From: an uncultured Sphingomonadaceae bacterium
GTDB taxonomy: Bacteria > Pseudomonadota > Alphaproteobacteria > Sphingomonadales > Sphingomonadaceae
DNA: 46,207 bases
Assembly: GCA_903871605.1 (NCBI GenBank)
Contig: CAIQHF010000047.1
Span: forward strand, 1-46,207
Reading direction: 5' to 3'
A model generated the notes under the pieces. It did not search any database. It had not been told where the DNA came from and saw only the letters and a list, made by a program, of their open reading frames with translations. Below are positions 6,610 through 46,207 of this stretch, piece by piece. Both the position numbers and the translations under genes were made by a program. Every line of letters starts with the position of its first letter. The stretch's first letter is position 1.

Positions 6610-7257
6610 ATGCTGGTGCTGCACACCTGGACGACGCCCAATGGAAAGAAAGTGCCGATCCTGATGGAGGAGCTCGGCCTCGCCTATGAGCTCCACTTCG
6701 TCGACATCTCGAAGGACGAGCAGTTCGAGCCGAGCTTTCTTGCGATCTCGCCCAACAACAAGATCCCCGCGCTGGTCGATCATGGTGCGGCGGGCGGGCC
6801 GCTGTCGATCTTCGAGAGCGGCGCGATCCTCGAATATCTGGCCGACAAGCATCATGGCTTCCTGGCCGCCTCGGGCCATGCGCGCTGGAAGGCGATGGAG
6901 TGGCTCTACTGGCAGGTCGGCTCGCTCGGCCCGATGCTGGGGCAGCTCGGCTTCTTCGCGGTTCGCGCGAAGGAGAAGGCGCCGCTCGCGATCGATCGCT
7001 TCACCGAGGAGGCGGCGCGGCTGCTCGGCGTGCTCGACCGCCGTCTGAGCGAGGCGCGCTATCTGGCGGGCGACGACTATACGATCGCCGACATCGCCTG
7101 CTATCCGTGGATGGTGGGCGCAACGACGATGATGAAGGACGTGCTCGCCGACGCGCTCGCCGGCAAGGACTCGATCGCGCGCTGGATGGACGAACTCGGC
7201 GCGCGGCCGGCGGTGCAACGCGGCATGGCGATCAAGCCGCCGGTGGTGGCGGGGTGA
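6610..7257 (+). CDS. Glutathione S-transferase family protein (YfcG/YghU-like)
   Basis: A 215-aa soluble protein with an N-terminal thioredoxin-like domain (to about residue 85) and an all-helical C-terminal domain. The start region (T-W-T-T-P-N-G-K-K) and the I-S-P-N-N-K-I-P-A-L-V-D block resemble nu-class enzymes such as E. coli YfcG and YghU, where the T-P-N-G turn contacts glutathione and the protein acts as a disulfide-bond reductase. The F-E-S-G-A-I-L-E-Y-L motif is the usual glutathione gamma-glutamyl binding segment. The ATG at 6610 fits the family N-terminus; the open frame upstream to 6433 overlaps the helicase on the other strand and is a shadow. It is divergent from the helicase, with 113 bp between them. 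Confidence 0.92.
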   Translation: MLVLHTWTTPNGKKVPILMEELGLAYELHFVDISKDEQFEPSFLAISPNNKIPALVDHGAAGGPLSIFESGAILEYLADKHHGFLAASGHARWKAMEWLYWQVGSLGPMLGQLGFFAVRAKEKAPLAIDRFTEEAARLLGVLDRRLSEARYLAGDDYTIADIACYPWMVGATTMMKDVLADALAGKDSIARWMDELGARPAVQRGMAIKPPVVAG

Positions 7258-7263
7258 GCTACT

Positions 7264-7374
7264 CCCTCTCCCCAGCGGGGAGAGGGTTGGGGTGAGGGGG
7301 AGCGGCGGCGCAGCCGTCGCGTCTCACTTAGGAGGCTGGACACCCTCACCCAACCCTCTCCCTGAGGGAGAGGG
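7264..7374. repeat. Family-2 palindromic repeat unit (CCCTCTCC type)
   Basis: A hairpin of CCCTCTCCCC and GGGGAGAGGG is followed by GGTGAGGGGGAGC, a variable GC-rich centre, then CACCCTCACCCAACCC and a closing CCCTCTCCC/GGGAGAGGG hairpin. The near-identical layout recurs at 15657-15766. Here it separates the convergent GST and efflux lipoprotein genes and reaches to 6 bp from the latter's stop. The GAGAGGG hairpin without T-runs may still act as a transcription barrier. Confidence 0.75.
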
Positions 7375-15646: not shown

Positions 15647-15656
15647 ACAGATTCTT

Positions 15657-15766
15657 CCTCTCCCTGTCGGGGAGAGGGTCGGGGTGAGGGGGAGCGACGC
15701 GTCAGCGTCGCGTCCCGCCTCCGGAGGTGGGAGACCCTCACCCAGCCCATTCCCGAAGGGAGGGGG
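15657..15766. repeat. Family-2 palindromic repeat unit (CCTCTCC type)
   Basis: Same design as 7264-7374: an opening CCTCTCCC/GGGGAGAGG hairpin, GGTGAGGGGGAGC, a GC-rich centre (with ACGCGTCAGCGTCGCGT), then GACCCTCACCCAGCCC and a degraded closing hairpin. It sits between the convergent kinase and S10 peptidase genes. The two copies are alike at the ends and differ in the centre. Confidence 0.75.
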
Positions 15767-24983: not shown

Positions 24984-27900
24984 TCAGTGGAAGTCGCGCG
25001 ACTTGGGGATGATCCGCACGTCGCGTGGATGCGCGCCGCGCGCCATCTGCGGGTGGACGAAGACGTCGGCGCGCGAGACTTGGATCGGCACCTGCCCCTC
25101 CTCGCTCAGCCGGTCGAGCAGCGCGGTGCGGTCGACGATGCGGCTGGCGATCAGGTGGATCACGCCCTCGCGGCTCCTCTGCACCTCGCCCTCGGCCTCC
25201 ATCAGCCGGGCGGCCATCAGCGGGCGGCGATAGCGTTCGAACTGCCGCGCCCACAGCAGGATGTTGACCACGCCGGTCTCGTCCTCGAGCGTCGCGAAGA
25301 TCGCATTGCCCTTGCCCGGCCGCTGGCGGACCAGCACGACCCCCGCCACTTTCGCGCGCGATCCGCTGCCGGCAAGCGCGAGCTCGGCGCTGCTCAGGAT
25401 TCGCTCGCGGCGCAGCGTCGCGCGCAGGAAGAGCAGCGGGTGCGCCTTGAGCGACAGCCGCGTGGTCTGATAATCGGCGGTGACCTGCTCGGCGAGCGGC
25501 ATCGCGGGCAGCATCGCATCGGGCTCGGCGGCGAGCTCGCGCGCCTGCGCGGCGGCAAAGAGGAGGAGTTCGTGGCCGCCCGGCATCCGCCGCGCCTCCC
25601 ACGCCGCCTCGCGCCGGCCCTGACCGATCGAGCCGCACGCATCGGCATCGGCGAGCAGGCGCAGCGCGCGCGCGGGTAGTGCGGCGCGGCGCGCGAGCGA
25701 CTCGATGCTGTCGAACGATCCGTCGGCGTCGCGCGCGGCGGCGATCTTGTGCCCCCATTCCTCGCGGAAACCGTCGATCTGGCGGAAGCCGAGGCGCAGC
25801 GCGTGATCCGCGTCGCGGCGGCAGGCGGCGACATTCCATGTCCATCGCGGGTGCGGCGCGCCGCTTGTGGCGTCGGCTTCGAGGCGATTGTCCCACTGGC
25901 TGTGGTTGACGTCGACCGAGCGCACATCGACGCCATGATCGCGCGCATCGCGGACGATCTGCGCGGGGGCGTAGAAACCCATAGGCTGCGCGTTGAGCAG
26001 GGCCGCGGCGAACACCGCGGGATAATGGCATTTGATCCACGACGAGACATAGACGAGCAGCGCGAAGGAGATGGCGTGGCTCTCCGGGAAGCCGTAGCTG
26101 CCGAACCCCTTGATCTGCGCATAGCAGCGCTGCGCGAATGCCTCCTCATAGCCGCGCGCGACCATGCCGCCGACCATCTTCTGCTCGAGTTCGCCGATCG
26201 TGCCGACGTTTCGGAAGGTCGCCATCGCGCGGCGCAGCCGGTTGGCCTCGTCGGGTGAAAAGCCCGCCGCGGTGATGGCGAGCTTCATCGCCTGTTCCTG
26301 GAACAATGGCACGCCGAAGGTATGGCCCAGCACCTCATGCAGTTCGTCGGCGGGGTAGGGCGGCTTGGGGGAAGGGAAGGGGAAGGGCTTGCCGGTCAGC
26401 CGGAACTCCTCGCGGCGGCGCAAATAGGGGTGGACCATGTCGCCCTCGATCGGGCCGGGCCGCACGATCGCGACCTGCACCGCCAGATCGTAGAAGACCC
26501 GCGGCTTGAGCCTGGGCAGCATGTTGATCTGCGCGCGGCTCTCGACCTGGAAGACGCCGACGCTGTCGCCCTCGCACAGCATGTCGTAGACCTGCGGATC
26601 GTCCTGCGGGATGGTGGCGAGCGACCAGTCGCCGAGCCCATGCTGTTCCATCAGCGCGAACGCCTTGCGGATGCAGGTCAGCATGCCGAGCGCGAGGATG
26701 TCGACCTTCATCAGCTTGAGCGCGTCGATGTCGTCCTTGTCCCATTCGATGAAGGTGCGCTCGTCCATCGCGGCGTTGTGGATCGGCACGGTCTCGTCGA
26801 GCCGGTCCTGCGTCAGCACGAAGCCGCCGACATGCTGCGAAAGATGGCGCGGCGTGTGGAGCAGCTGGTCGACGATCCATTTGAGCCGCGCGAGATCGGG
26901 CGCCGCCAGATCGAAGCCGGCATCGGTGAAGCGCCGCGTCTCCATGCGATCGGAGAAGCTGCCCCACACGGTGCTGGTCAGCCGCGAGGTCATGTCCTCG
27001 GACAGGCCGAGCACCTTGCCGACCTCGCGCACCGCGCTGCGCGGGCGGAAGTGGATCACGGTGGCGGCGATGCCGGCGCGGTGGCGGCCATAGCGGCGGT
27101 AGATTTCCTGGATCACCTCCTCGCGCCGCTCATGCTCGAAATCGACGTCGATGTCGGGCGGCTCGTTGCGCTCGGCCGAGACGAAACGCGAGAATAGCAG
27201 GTTGAACTGTGCGGGATCGACCGAGGTGATGCCGAGGCAGTAGCAGACCGCCGAATTGGCCGCCGACCCGCGCCCCTGGCACAGGATCGGCGGATCGAGC
27301 GATCGCGCGAACTTGACCGCTTCGTAGACGGTGAGGAAATAATAGGCATAGTTCCGCTCGCGGATCAGCGCGAACTCGGTGCGCAGCGTCGCCAGCACCT
27401 TGTCGGGGATGCCGCCGGGATATCTGTCCTCCTTGGCCAGCCGCAGCGTCTCGTGCTCGAGCCAGTCCTGCGCGTCCCAGCCCCCGGGGACGGGTTCGTG
27501 CGGATATTCATAGTGGAGATCGTCGAGCGTGAAGCCGATCCGATCGACTATGTCCTGCCACGCCGTCACCGTCTGCGGCGCCTGGCGGAACAGCCGTGCC
27601 ATCTCGCGCGCCGGCTTGAGGTGGCGCTCGGCATTGGCGAGCAGGCGCAGGCCCGCCTCGGCGATCGTCGTGCCCTCCCGGATGCAGGTGACGACGTCGT
27701 GGAGCGGGCGCTGCGCGGGGGCGGCATAGAGCGCGTCGCAGGTGGCGAGCAGCGGGATGCCGGTCGCCTGCGACAAACGCTGCAGCCGTGCCAGCCGGCG
27801 CTGGTCGTCGCCCCGCCGCGGCATCGTCGCGGCGATCCACAGCGGCGCCAGCTTGGCGAGCCGACGCAGCAGGAATTCGTGGGTTTCGTCGGTGATCGCG

Positions 27901-28313
27901 ATCAGCAGCAGCCCCTCCGCCTGCTCGGCCAGATCGGCGAACAGCAGCTCGCACTCGCCCTTTTTCGCGCGGCGGTTGCCCAGCGTCAGCAGCCGGGTAA
28001 GTCGGCCCCAGCCCGCGCGGTCGACGGGGTAGGCGACGATGTCGGGCGTGCCGTCGGCGAAGGCGAGCCGCGCGCCGACGATCAGGCGGAAGTCGATGGC
28101 GCCGAGCCCCTGCGCCGCTGCATCCTCGCGCGCATCCTTGAGCGCCTTGTAGGCGCGGACCACGCCCGCCACGCTGTTGCGGTCGGCGATGCCGATCGCC
28201 TTGTGGCCGAGCGCGAGCGCATGCCCCACCATGTCCGCCGGATGCGAGGCGCCGCGCAGAAAACTATAGTTGGTCGCCGCGATCATTTCCGCGAAATCGG
28301 GCGCGTCGGTCAT
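24984..28313 (-). CDS. dnaE2: Error-prone DNA polymerase DnaE2 (ImuC)
   Basis: A 1109-aa C-family polymerase. The N-terminal PHP domain (A-T-N-Y-S-F-L-R-G-A-S-H-P) opens like DnaE2 and unlike replicative DnaE1, which is longer and reads F-V-H-L-R. The catalytic palm has P-D-I-D-V-D-F near residue 390. The C-terminal OB fold covers about 960-1060, and the last residues (I-I-P-K-S-R-D-F-H) are the DnaE2 hallmark ending. It extends DNA past lesions together with ImuA and ImuB and is a main source of damage-induced mutation. Its start overlaps the imuB stop (ATGA, 28310-28313), showing translational coupling. The whole cassette should be LexA-controlled through the box at 30846-30860. Confidence 0.96.
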   Translation of the reverse strand: MTDAPDFAEMIAATNYSFLRGASHPADMVGHALALGHKAIGIADRNSVAGVVRAYKALKDAREDAAAQGLGAIDFRLIVGARLAFADGTPDIVAYPVDRAGWGRLTRLLTLGNRRAKKGECELLFADLAEQAEGLLLIAITDETHEFLLRRLAKLAPLWIAATMPRRGDDQRRLARLQRLSQATGIPLLATCDALYAAPAQRPLHDVVTCIREGTTIAEAGLRLLANAERHLKPAREMARLFRQAPQTVTAWQDIVDRIGFTLDDLHYEYPHEPVPGGWDAQDWLEHETLRLAKEDRYPGGIPDKVLATLRTEFALIRERNYAYYFLTVYEAVKFARSLDPPILCQGRGSAANSAVCYCLGITSVDPAQFNLLFSRFVSAERNEPPDIDVDFEHERREEVIQEIYRRYGRHRAGIAATVIHFRPRSAVREVGKVLGLSEDMTSRLTSTVWGSFSDRMETRRFTDAGFDLAAPDLARLKWIVDQLLHTPRHLSQHVGGFVLTQDRLDETVPIHNAAMDERTFIEWDKDDIDALKLMKVDILALGMLTCIRKAFALMEQHGLGDWSLATIPQDDPQVYDMLCEGDSVGVFQVESRAQINMLPRLKPRVFYDLAVQVAIVRPGPIEGDMVHPYLRRREEFRLTGKPFPFPSPKPPYPADELHEVLGHTFGVPLFQEQAMKLAITAAGFSPDEANRLRRAMATFRNVGTIGELEQKMVGGMVARGYEEAFAQRCYAQIKGFGSYGFPESHAISFALLVYVSSWIKCHYPAVFAAALLNAQPMGFYAPAQIVRDARDHGVDVRSVDVNHSQWDNRLEADATSGAPHPRWTWNVAACRRDADHALRLGFRQIDGFREEWGHKIAAARDADGSFDSIESLARRAALPARALRLLADADACGSIGQGRREAAWEARRMPGGHELLLFAAAQARELAAEPDAMLPAMPLAEQVTADYQTTRLSLKAHPLLFLRATLRRERILSSAELALAGSGSRAKVAGVVLVRQRPGKGNAIFATLEDETGVVNILLWARQFERYRRPLMAARLMEAEGEVQRSREGVIHLIASRIVDRTALLDRLSEEGQVPIQVSRADVFVHPQMARGAHPRDVRIIPKSRDFH

Positions 28314-30154
28314 GCGAACAGCCCGTGGAGATACCAGTCGGGGCGATCGGCCTCGTCATAGAGGCCGTGGCGGAACAGCCAGAAGCGCCGTCCGCGAACA
28401 TCCTCGACGCGGAAATAGTCGCGGGTGAGCAGCGGGTTTGCGGGTCGCCCCGGCACCGCTCCGCGCGTCTCGTCCAGCTGTTCCCCGTCGCAGTCCATCG
28501 CGTCGCGGCCCGGGACGGGTCGGACGGTCGAGGCGCCCGGATCGGGCAGGCGGTCGACGCGCACGCGCCACCATTCGCCCGCGATCCGCTCGGGCCCCTC
28601 GAAGCGCGCGACCTCGTGCAGCGTGCGCCGCCAGCGGAAACGATGCGGTGGCCCGTCGGGCACTTCGTACATCGTCACCTCGATCCGCTGCGGCGGGTCG
28701 AACAGGTGGAGCGGGCGGAGCGGGGGCTCGCCGGGGACGGGGGCTGCCCAGCGCGCCGGATCGGGCAGCGCGATCGCGGGCAGCGCGAGCGCCGCCTGCT
28801 CGGGGATGTGCGTGTCGATCTGGCGGAAGCGGCGGATGCGGCCGCCGCCGATGCGCGTGCCGAGCCGATCGACCAGCGCCGCCATCGCCTCCTCGCCGAG
28901 CTGCCCGCCTTCGAGCCCGAGCTGCGTCGCCGCCAGCGGCTCGACCAGCGGCACCGCGAGGCGGATCATGTCGAAGCCGAAGCCGGGGTCGATCGGGTCG
29001 GCGAGCGCGTCGATCCGCTCGCGCAGCAGCCGCGCGGGGACCTGCGGGTCGCGCGTCGGCAGCCCGGTCTCGACCGCGAGGTCGCGCACCGCGCCGTCGC
29101 TGCGATAGAGGCGCGCCGAGAAGCGGCGGCCGCCGCCGCGGCGTTCCTCCAGCGCCAACGCGGCCTCGTGCATCAATGCGTCGAGGACGACCAGCGCATC
29201 CTCGGTGCGCGCGATCGGTTCGGCGAAGCGGCGCTCGAACAGCAGCGCGGGCAGCGCGCGACGCGGCACGATGCGGCTGTCGGCGCGGCCGAGCAGCCGG
29301 TCGAGCGCGTCGACCATCTCGGCGCCGAAGCGCGCGGCGAGCGGCGCGGTCGGGCGCGCGGCGAGATCGCCGATCGTCTTGAGCCCGGCGCGACGCAGCG
29401 CGACGACCATATCCTCGTCGAGCCGCAGCGCCGCGACCGGCAGCCGGCGGAGCGCGCCGGCCTCGTCGGCGGCGGGCATCGTCTGGAAGCGCGCGAGCGC
29501 CTGCGCCGCCTCGGGCGATCCCGCGATCGCCAGGCGCAGGTGGATGCCGGCCAGCGCGAAGCGACGTTCGACGTCGGCCGCGAGCGCGGCTTCGTTCGCG
29601 AAAATAGGGTCGGCTTCCCCGGTGCAGGCCGGGGCCCGGGCCCCACGTCTCGTATCAGACGGTGCGTTCGCCTCCGGCTGCGGGCCTGGGCCCCGGCCTG
29701 CGCCGGGGAACGAGCCGCGCTTCCCACCGCCGCTGCGGAGCGCAAAACTCTCGAGACACCCCGTGATGTCGAGCGTGATCCCGTCGGGCGGATCCAGCGC
29801 GACCATCGGCGTCCAGCGATCGCAGCCGTCGGCGAGGCGCTCGAGCCAGAGCCGGTCGGCGAGCGAATCATGATCGATCGCGGCCAGTTCGGGAATCCGC
29901 GCGCGCGCGTCCGCCAGTGTCAGCCCGGGGGCGAGCCCCTGCGCCAGCGCATTCGCATCGAGTGCCACGATCCGCATCGCGCCGCGCTGCTTCTCGACGA
30001 AGGCGATCGGCGGCTCCAGGGCAGGGTCGCGACGCTCATCCGGCGAGGCGGAACGCCGCTGCGCCGTCCGCCGATCCGCGCTCAGCAGCGGCAGCCACAG
30101 CGCCAGATGCCGCCGTGCCGCCTGCCGCGGCCTGGCCGAAGCGGGCGGCTTCAC
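28310..30154 (-). CDS. imuB: ImuB, catalytically inactive Y-family polymerase-like protein, carrying an in-frame repeat insertion
   Basis: The ImuB adaptor of the ImuA-ImuB-DnaE2 mutasome, about 614 aa from a GTG at 30154 with GGAG 8 bases upstream. The core opens L-A-L-W-L-P-L-L-S-A-D-R-R. The normal palm element L-D-I-T-G-C is at about 130, and the catalytic acidic pair of active Y-family enzymes is not evident, as expected for ImuB. The C-terminal part binds the beta clamp and partners in known members, ending R-F-W-L-F-R-H-G-L-Y. Between D-I-T-G-C and F-A-N-E-A-A-L, where relatives have only a few residues, there is an added stretch of about 45-50 residues, and its DNA contains a family-1 palindromic repeat (29615-29711). 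The frame is kept. It overlaps imuA by about 119 bp and dnaE2 by 4 bp. Confidence 0.92.
   Translation of the reverse strand: MKPPASARPRQAARRHLALWLPLLSADRRTAQRRSASPDERRDPALEPPIAFVEKQRGAMRIVALDANALAQGLAPGLTLADARARIPELAAIDHDSLADRLWLERLADGCDRWTPMVALDPPDGITLDITGCLESFALRSGGGKRGSFPGAGRGPGPQPEANAPSDTRRGARAPACTGEADPIFANEAALAADVERRFALAGIHLRLAIAGSPEAAQALARFQTMPAADEAGALRRLPVAALRLDEDMVVALRRAGLKTIGDLAARPTAPLAARFGAEMVDALDRLLGRADSRIVPRRALPALLFERRFAEPIARTEDALVVLDALMHEAALALEERRGGGRRFSARLYRSDGAVRDLAVETGLPTRDPQVPARLLRERIDALADPIDPGFGFDMIRLAVPLVEPLAATQLGLEGGQLGEEAMAALVDRLGTRIGGGRIRRFRQIDTHIPEQAALALPAIALPDPARWAAPVPGEPPLRPLHLFDPPQRIEVTMYEVPDGPPHRFRWRRTLHEVARFEGPERIAGEWWRVRVDRLPDPGASTVRPVPGRDAMDCDGEQLDETRGAVPGRPANPLLTRDYFRVEDVRGRRFWLFRHGLYDEADRPDWYLHGLFA
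29615..29711. repeat. Family-1 palindromic repeat unit inside the imuB coding region
   Basis: TTCCCCGG...CCGGGGCCC at one end and GGGCCTGGGCCCC...GCCGGGGAAC at the other form two mirrored hairpins around a 40-base centre, the same module as 46065-46162. On the minus strand it is translated in the imuB frame as a Gly/Pro/Arg/Ala-rich insert (S-F-P-G-A-G-R-G-P-G-P ... A-R-A-P-A-C-T-G-E) at about residues 148-180. Confidence 0.85.
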
Positions 30155-30827
30155 GATCCCACTCCAGCCGCCAGCGTCCACCCGAGGGCCGGCCGCGCTG
30201 GCGCAGCAGTTCGACGTCGAGCATGGTGTTGCCCGGCGCCTGCGCCTCGAGCGCGATCGACGGCGCGGCGCGCACCGACCAGCGCGTCTGCGCGGCGCTC
30301 GGGCCCGGCTCGGCCTGCGCGCGCAGCATCAGCGCGGTCACCCCGGAGGCCTCGGCGGCGACCGCCAGCCGCCGGCTCGCGGTGAGATCGAGCGCCTGCG
30401 GTTGGCGCCACAGCTCGATCACCACCGCCCCCACCTCGGCGCAGCGCACCACGTCCGCCGCGGCGCGCAGCAGCGTCACCGCATCGGGCAGCACCGCCAG
30501 CACCAGCCGCGCCGGATCGAGCCCGATCTCGGCGAGCCCGGGCGCATGCAGCCGCCCGCCCTGTCGCTCGGCCTCCTCCTGCCTCAGCCATAGCACGGGC
30601 GCTCCGGCTGGCAGCATGAGGCAGGCGAGCATGGCGGCGAAACCCGCGGCGCCCGCCGTCTCGTCGCGCTCGGCGGCGAAGATCTCGTGGAGGCGGGCGC
30701 GCGCAAGCCCGCCGCCCAGCGCGCGATCGACGTCGCCCGCGCCGAGCGCCACCAGGGCCGGGGCATCGACCGGCCGCTGCCGCTCGATCCGGGCGATCCT
30801 TTCTCGCAAGGCGTGATGCGCATCCAC
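30036..30827 (-). CDS. imuA: ImuA, RecA-like mutasome component
   Basis: About 263 aa from a GTG at 30827. The domain is a RecA/SulA-like fold: A-L-G-G-G-L-A-R-A-R-L-H-E-I-F-A near residue 35, P-V-L-W-L-R-Q near 78, and G-L-D-P-A-R-L-V-L-A near 102, all typical of alphaproteobacterial ImuA. The last 20-25 residues are an Ala/Gly-rich tail. ImuA links DnaE2 and ImuB at damaged forks and counters RecA filaments in studied species. The start is uncertain: a TTG at 30890 would place the LexA box within the gene, so I prefer 30827. The LexA box at 30846-30860 lies 18 bp upstream. Confidence 0.88.
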   Translation of the reverse strand: MDAHHALRERIARIERQRPVDAPALVALGAGDVDRALGGGLARARLHEIFAAERDETAGAAGFAAMLACLMLPAGAPVLWLRQEEAERQGGRLHAPGLAEIGLDPARLVLAVLPDAVTLLRAAADVVRCAEVGAVVIELWRQPQALDLTASRRLAVAAEASGVTALMLRAQAEPGPSAAQTRWSVRAAPSIALEAQAPGNTMLDVELLRQRGRPSGGRWRLEWDREAARFGQAAAGGTAASGAVAAAAERGSADGAAAFRLAG

Positions 30828-30845
30828 CGACTCGATCGTCCACGT

Positions 30846-30860
30846 GTTCCTGTTATGTTC
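30846..30860 (-). promoter_or_regulatory. LexA (SOS) box of the imuA-imuB-dnaE2 operon
   Basis: GTTC-CTGTTAT-GTTC on the plus strand (GAAC-N7-GAAC on the gene strand) matches the alphaproteobacterial LexA direct-repeat motif with exact 7-base spacing. It lies in the 64-bp gap between the UVR protein gene and imuA. Confidence 0.88.
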
Positions 30861-30891
30861 TAAATCGCGCCTCGGACGGTGGAGAGTCAAG

Positions 30892-33461: not shown

Positions 33462-33472
33462 GGCCAGCGTCC

Positions 33473-33560
33473 GTCATTCCCGCGAAGGCGGCAATCCATA
33501 GACGCTGCGTTCGGTGGACAAGCGCCGCGTTTATGGATCCCGGATCAAGTCCGGGATGAC
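33473..33560. repeat. Family-3 palindromic repeat unit (GTCATTCCC type)
   Basis: It opens GTCATTCCCGCGAAGGCGG with AATCCATA, and closes TATGGATCCCGGATCAAGTCCGGGATGAC: two hairpins with mirrored ends and a short centre. It lies between the convergent M48 and recN genes. A relative with GTCATGCC/GGAATGAC ends is at 42661-42739. Confidence 0.75.
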
Positions 33561-33586
33561 GAAGAAGAAGGGCTCCCGGCCCCTAC

Positions 33587-45907: not shown

Positions 45908-46207
45908 GTTCCCCGGCGTGCGCCGGGGAGCCGCTGAGGAACAGCCCCGTTCCCCCGCGCAGGCGGGGGCCCAGGCTCGCGGCCTGTGGCGGGCGTCGCG
46001 CTTCTATCCAGAGCTGGGAACTCGGCCCCGGCCCGCGCGGTGGAACCGCTTGGGGAGAGGTCCCGTTCCCCGGCGAAAGCCGGGGCCCAGGCCCGCGGCT
46101 CGTGGCGGGCGTGGCGCTCTTACAGAGAGGTGGGGCCTGGACCCCGGCGTACGCCGGGGAACGGGTTAGAGGGCCCGTTCCCCCGCGCAGGCGGGGGCCC
46201 AGGCCCG
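45908..46207. repeat. Cluster of family-1 palindromic repeat units (cut by window end)
   Basis: This 312-bp gene-free end holds no ORF I can support. It has a half unit at 45908-45929, a full but decayed unit at 45949-46046, a clean unit at 46065-46162 (GTTCCCCGG...GGGGCCCAGGCC, centre, GGCCTGGACCCC...CCGGGGAAC), and the start of another at 46177. The clean unit has 98 bp. Units are tandem with short spacers (about 14-20 bp). Confidence 0.85.

Follow-up and report, generated by a model that had tools for sequence, protein, structure and literature searches.

The imuB gene of an uncultured Sphingomonadaceae bacterium carries a 98-bp palindromic repeat, R1, that leaves the reading frame intact. 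It is very likely that this element, a REP dimer resembling the CGTC type, entered a length-variable loop of ImuB in an ancestor of the strain and was kept by virtue of a stop-free frame and the tolerance of the loop. The window analysed was the whole 46,207-nt stretch of DNA, and the genome to which it belongs is designated G000.

In the window, imuB (28310-30181, minus strand, stop codon included; start codon uncertain) adjoins and sits between imuA (30192-30890, minus strand) and dnaE2, which encodes error-prone polymerase (24984-28313, minus strand). The DnaE2 match to NF004225 reached 1337 bits (cut-off 939), and this dnaE2 copy is free of repeat inserts. ImuA matched NF033429 at E 1.1e-8, its 35 bits falling below the curated cut-off of 150. 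ImuB itself gave only weak NCBIfam matches, to Pol IV, and nothing in Pfam at the default threshold, and the name imuB rests mainly on the gene cluster and on alignments. A profile built from 35 ImuBs matched Pol IV chains (best E 3.3e-12) and aligned a DG of ImuB with the DE pair of Pol IV, a pair that is catalytic. The protein thus has the attributes of an ImuB, i.e., an apparently inactive Y-family polymerase homologue that has lost the catalytic acid and is encoded in an imuA-imuB-dnaE2 cluster. Since the DG aligns at the DE of Pol IV and LDITG (first residue 137) at LDVTD, the insert was placed in the loop linking the LDITG palm strand to the next helix, in agreement with the original prediction that it directly follows this palm strand.

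R1 occupies 29614-29711 on the minus strand, corresponding to ImuB codons 157-190. Its two palindromic arms (29615-29643 and 29682-29710; inverted repeat I21) are 93% complementary and separated by 38 nt, and the stretch folded as single-stranded DNA to -52.4 kcal/mol, compared with -30.3 (sd 2.7) in shuffles (z -8.2). A full repeat unit had been predicted in frame at 29615-29711, with neither stop nor frameshift resulting, and both points were borne out: the frame 28310-30181 has no stop across the element and is open in G000 and in the sister genome G009. The element adds ~32 Gly/Pro/Arg-rich residues to ImuB downstream of the LDITG strand. Directly preceding it are extra loop residues (ESFALRSGGGKRGS; 29712-29759, minus strand). 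After the cysteine of the loop, ESFA is common to G000, G009, and G004 (the usual sequence is CAHLFGGE), which suggests that the repeat probably entered a loop that was already extended.

R1 is abundant in its own genome. Its half-unit pattern had 70 and 68 matches at up to three mismatches, and the reversed control had none. Within 400 kb (the regions around matches plus the window; strands collapsed by hand), R1 was found at no fewer than 105 places, a lower bound since 150 of 9128 candidates were scored. With genes predicted by a purpose-made codon model, 92 of these places were intergenic, in six a gene frame ended inside the element, five lay at gene ends, and two, in imuB and hrpB, were intragenic. 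Both intragenic copies are in frame. Lengths were 93-100 nt at 63 places, 74-80 nt at 30 (a shorter class of ~77 nt), and other at 12. Among long copies, 300 of 378 frames were stop-free, against an average of 252 and a maximum of 279 in base shuffles. Most of them are 98 nt (the hrpB copy is 96 nt); therefore, a bare insertion shifts the frame, and the imuB event must have gained or lost bases. Mobilisation of R1 by a RAYT was considered and rejected, as Y1_Tnp (PF01797) had no match in the genome at E 0.001 in a search that was positive in five of 14 control genomes.

Further repeats were seen in the window and its assembly. Two intergenic R1 copies lie at 45949-46046 and 46065-46162 (plus strand; 45949-46162 overall), and another half copy runs to the contig end. 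Contigs of this assembly end inside R1 copies at window position 46207, at G000:C29:1-82, and at G000:C33:39411-39491. One copy (L129:2519-2616; G000:C11:8518-8615) stops a few bases upstream of a likely gene start and is probably leader rather than coding sequence; the protein of that gene resembles PriA. An inverted dimer starting with CGTC, at 33472-33561, looks like a textbook CGTC REP and lies between what are presumably a gene for an M48-like peptidase and recN. Two copies of a palindromic repeat, CTCTCCC...GGGAGAGGG, at 7257-7314 and 15649-15706, are 81% alike, and a repeat of the same kind occurs in frame in the ImuB and DnaE2 of L058/L232.

Comparison with relatives dated the insertion. 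The R1 insert is absent from ImuB of the same-genus genomes G001, G003, and G007, as had been anticipated for close relatives; G006, whose imuB is split across contigs with the insert site uncovered, was left out of this insert-free set. G009, a Sphingomonas metagenome bin (L041), carries R1 at the same place in imuB with 83 of 98 bases identical. Between G000 and G009 the gene shows 254 changes in 559 codons, and the divergence of the element is about that of the whole gene. Since place and junctions are the same in this separate assembly, the insertion is inherited and not a sequencing error. R1 is also abundant only in these two among ten same-genus genomes (at least 144 and at least 141 rows in G000 and G009, 0-34 in the rest, both strands counted and up to 150 candidates scored per genome), and the most likely course is therefore that both the expansion of R1 and its entry into imuB preceded the separation of the two lineages. 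In G004, the same ImuB loop holds a palindromic repeat of a different family; the G004 genome has 10 further places matching it at 87% identity or better, plus many weaker matches (64 rows in total, with the self-match and both strands counted). The loop also varies in length independently of repeats, being shorter in L052, L055, L063, and L070. A search for a clean empty site or target duplication for the imuB insertion found none.

We then considered the fate of the inserted segments. In hrpB of G009, a sequence aligning with R1 lies at the same place as in G000 with the frame kept, and 14 of its 30 outer pairs are preserved, compared with 28 of 30 in G000. This sequence is probably a decayed R1 copy of common origin. 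Among ten same-genus HrpB loci (one of which, L214, was not extracted by motif), seven of the other eight genomes have only a shorter linker at the R1 site. The hrpB segment has a pN of 0.378 vs 0.060 for the rest of the protein, i.e., it evolves about sixfold faster at the amino acid level. In ImuB, the dN/dS of the segment was 0.50, which over 32 codons is inseparable from neutral, compared with 0.30 for the rest of the protein, which is under purifying selection. Conservation of hairpin pairing in imuB was rejected, as all seven arm pairs that changed between G000 and G009 changed on one side, with no two-sided change among them. Taken together, the open frames, the one-sided pair changes in imuB, and the loss of the palindrome in hrpB indicate that the frame is maintained and the hairpin is not. 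Because the hrpB palindrome has probably decayed while its frame is still open, repeats can leave new protein segments behind. The earlier suggestion that they may seed such segments has thus gained one probable case, hrpB of G009.

To place imuB in a wider setting, coding stretches of 155 imuB, 154 imuA, and 147 dnaE2 loci were scanned for long inverted repeats. Of 168 genomes with an ImuB match, 110 were taken (30 loci, 80 regions), the others being lower-scoring or cut by contig ends; eight locus pairs represented the same genome twice, and duplicates were removed from the final counts. Eleven imuB loci with a long inverted repeat were reduced to eight genes, all eight in frame, after L187 was dropped as ordinary sequence and two pairs were each assigned to one genome; the window and G009 represent one event. 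The only inverted repeat in imuA (L278) was set aside as ordinary sequence. For dnaE2, 21 loci held 24 repeats (20 loci and 23 repeats once one duplicate genome was removed), and 22 were in frame. The exception, in L289 (G029), is a dnaE2 that does not lie in one frame, with a palindrome at about CDS nt 2476-2547; dnaE2 of L204 is likewise not in one frame, and no palindrome was found there. For imuB and dnaE2 combined, 30 of the 31 long palindromes were in frame (binomial vs one third, 1e-13, with events not all independent). Judged from their peptides, the inserted repeats are of several clearly different kinds. Dispersed repetition in the own genome was seen for all three that were tried, namely R1, the G004 repeat, and the L080/L295 repeat (49 and 44 matches, control 0). 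Insertions at least 14 residues long concentrate at about residues 44-49, 145, 233-239, and 584 of ImuB and at about 143-148, 823, and 864-872 of DnaE2, in a list that includes ordinary length differences such as those at DnaE2 77 and ImuB 540. One carrier falls outside the Sphingomonadaceae: L086, a Xanthobacteraceae bin, whose ImuB shows two repeat-like inserts, near residues 233 and 480. The supposition that in-frame palindromic elements are rare outside Rickettsia is not supported: among sphingomonads they turned up in dnaE2 of many genomes and in several copies of imuB, dnaE1, and mfd, and they have been published for ERIC and Correia/NEMIS elements (PMC2229807) as well as for REPs in replication and repair genes (PMC3733652).

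Gene controls were drawn from 20 kb around imuB in 60 genomes, with an inverted-repeat score of at least 20 required. Twelve palindromes fell in the predicted dnaE2 genes (10 of 60), and none in 655 other predicted genes (645 kb) near imuB, in 42 predicted imuA, or in 52 predicted imuB, where one repeat (L309) was missed at a predicted gene edge. The hot spot in this set is therefore dnaE2, not imuB. The 87 other genes of at least 1500 nt (192 kb) also had none, and ~12 would be expected in them at the dnaE2 rate, or 5.5 or 3.7 at the dnaE1 or mfd rates. A gene finder hiding inserts within small genes was rejected as the cause: a scan at threshold 18 gave 49 palindromes, of which 16 belonged to mutasome genes (15 to dnaE2, at 13 loci, and one to imuB), and 28 of the 33 outside them were stopped in every frame within 180 nt. 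In the remaining five the frame is open and one flank or both score as non-coding; one-sided weakness of this sort was also seen for several mutasome palindromes, so the separation is imperfect.

The excess extends beyond the mutasome. In 30 genomes chosen mostly as carriers of mutasome inserts, a choice that favours repeat-rich genomes, DnaE1 had a repeat insert at one site in six (G000 and G009 included) and Mfd had one at nearly one site in three; HrpB was matched in 26 of the 30. The DnaE1 of G000 itself (L384, about CDS nt 969-1052) contains a palindromic insert, in frame, that belongs to a different kind of repeat (PFVPSEV...STALGTNG) and is also present in G009 (L386). The inverted repeat in dnaE1 of L385 was set aside as low-complexity. 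ImuB and DnaE2 are thus not the sole targets, and the excess spans large replication and repair enzymes. Since the replicative polymerase DnaE1 carries such inserts in six of the chosen genomes, the argument that ImuB tolerates its insert because it is non-catalytic is weakened.

These observations can be accommodated as follows. R1 (~98 bp) would have inserted in the palm loop of ImuB in the common ancestor of the strain and G009, probably as a non-autonomous element moved in trans, its own genome having no detectable Y1-type transposase. The insertion probably survived because the frame entered was stop-free and the net length change preserved the reading frame. The encoded segment of ~32 residues is probably a flexible loop, disordered and at most mildly selected, if not nearly neutral. 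Loops of large replication and repair enzymes, probably tolerant of length change, repeatedly catch unrelated repeat families in this way, and copies that break the frame would mostly be purged. Loop tolerance with purging of broken frames is, in our judgment, the likeliest mechanism. Tolerance alone, however, does not obviously explain why palindromes were confined to dnaE2 in the 60-genome controls, nor why none occurred in the 87 long genes.

In two alternative explanations, insertion or retention is directed. The inserts might be advantageous if an mRNA hairpin or a flexible protein loop tuned the output of replication and translesion enzymes and hence the mutation rate, as has been speculated for REP-tagged repair proteins (PMC3733652). 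Their concentration in dnaE2, imuB, dnaE1, mfd, and hrpB against none in 655 neighbouring genes, the different repeat families at the same loops, and the survival of the imuB copy across a species split would fit. However, the one-sided pair changes in imuB and a segment dN/dS there that is inseparable from neutral, together with the fast-changing hrpB segment and its lost palindrome, speak against such a benefit, and we regard it as quite improbable. Alternatively, DNA damage might create preferred insertion targets, namely genes that are then single-stranded, undergoing heavy transcription, or occupied by repair complexes. The excess in DNA-damage and replication genes, reported also in PMC3733652, would be expected, yet imuA of the same cluster is free of repeat inserts, R1 is mostly intergenic (92 of at least 105 places), and the insert sites track protein loops. 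Inserts also occur in DnaE1 and HrpB, which are not known to be SOS genes. We consider such targeting very improbable. More broadly, that directed insertion or retention, through DNA states of the damage response or selection on mutation rate, produces recurrent in-frame capture at loops of DnaE1, DnaE2, ImuB, Mfd, and HrpB, and with it a recurrent route to new segments, seems unlikely. As for an artefact of assembly or sequencing, repeats often break assemblies and some contigs of G000 end within R1 copies, but G009 has the same junctions; a dead imuB sits poorly with the frame open in both genomes and the purifying selection on the rest of ImuB. The probability of either is negligible.

Repeat inserts of this kind account for length differences among sphingomonad polymerases, which annotation could mistake for domains. 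The remark that REPs occur in repair genes also becomes countable: which loops, at what frequency, from how many families, and with what fate of the segment after a species split. If capture were directed rather than tolerated, selfish repeats would be linked to the control of mutation rate.

Several known systems resemble R1. Like R1 in imuB and hrpB, Rickettsia palindromic elements lie in frame within conserved genes, where they are translated as part of the protein (PMC10969869, PMC2229807), but they are longer (105-146 bp as reviewed) and nearly half are described as lying in ORFs (PMC10969869), compared with two intragenic copies among at least 105 places for R1. ERIC/RU-1 and Correia/NEMIS are also small palindromic elements with open frames that are fused in frame to genes; they belong to other bacteria and have terminal inverted repeats with target duplications (PMC2229807); no target duplication was seen for R1. 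REPINs (PMC3116915) share with R1 two inverted REPs, a spacer, and a mostly extragenic location, whereas the REPIN/RAYT system differs in that the R1 genome has no Y1_Tnp and R1 no GTAG tag.

Closest are the GTAG/CGTC REPs described by Di Nocera and colleagues (2013; PMC3733652). According to that study, CGTC REPs are common in alphaproteobacteria, Sphingomonads included, and have no linked transposase; REP dimers in ORFs encode 20-30 residues; and intragenic REPs are numerous in genes for replication and global repair, with DnaE2 and Rickettsia DnaE named. R1 agrees in that its full units are inverted dimers, no Y1_Tnp was found in a search for the Y1 class, and a four-base loop is followed in most copies by CCCAGG, in line with the 4-5 bp loop and CCA-like tail of CGTC REPs. 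It departs in its tag and stem. Instead of CGTC (TGTC or CCTC in many), its termini mostly read CGTT or TGTT (in 126 termini from 63 long copies, C in 67 and T in 33 at -1, then G in 124, T in 120, and T in 120), and the 7-bp stem of each half-unit, CCCCGGC/GCCGGGG, consists of G+C only, where CGTC REPs have 8-9 bp with A-T as the first and second pairs. R1 therefore resembles CGTC REPs and was not filed as a strict member; the L080 ImuB repeat does start with CGTC. The 2013 study makes a case for neutral linkers as well as for effects on mutability, and reports that sites within a gene class mostly differ, recB excepted. Its main text does not name ImuB, Mfd, or HrpB ("RNA helicases" are named for another phylum), and our literature searches, which covered main texts and few subscription papers, found no report of REPs in imuB. 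The counts obtained here are consistent with that study. Relative to its main text, the present analysis adds ImuB, Mfd, HrpB, and sphingomonad DnaE1 as hosts. It also compares counts with those in neighbouring genes and describes different families in a single loop, as well as shared descent with probable decay after a species split. Intragenic REPs in repair genes are a known kind, and within the literature searched ImuB is a new host gene for them.
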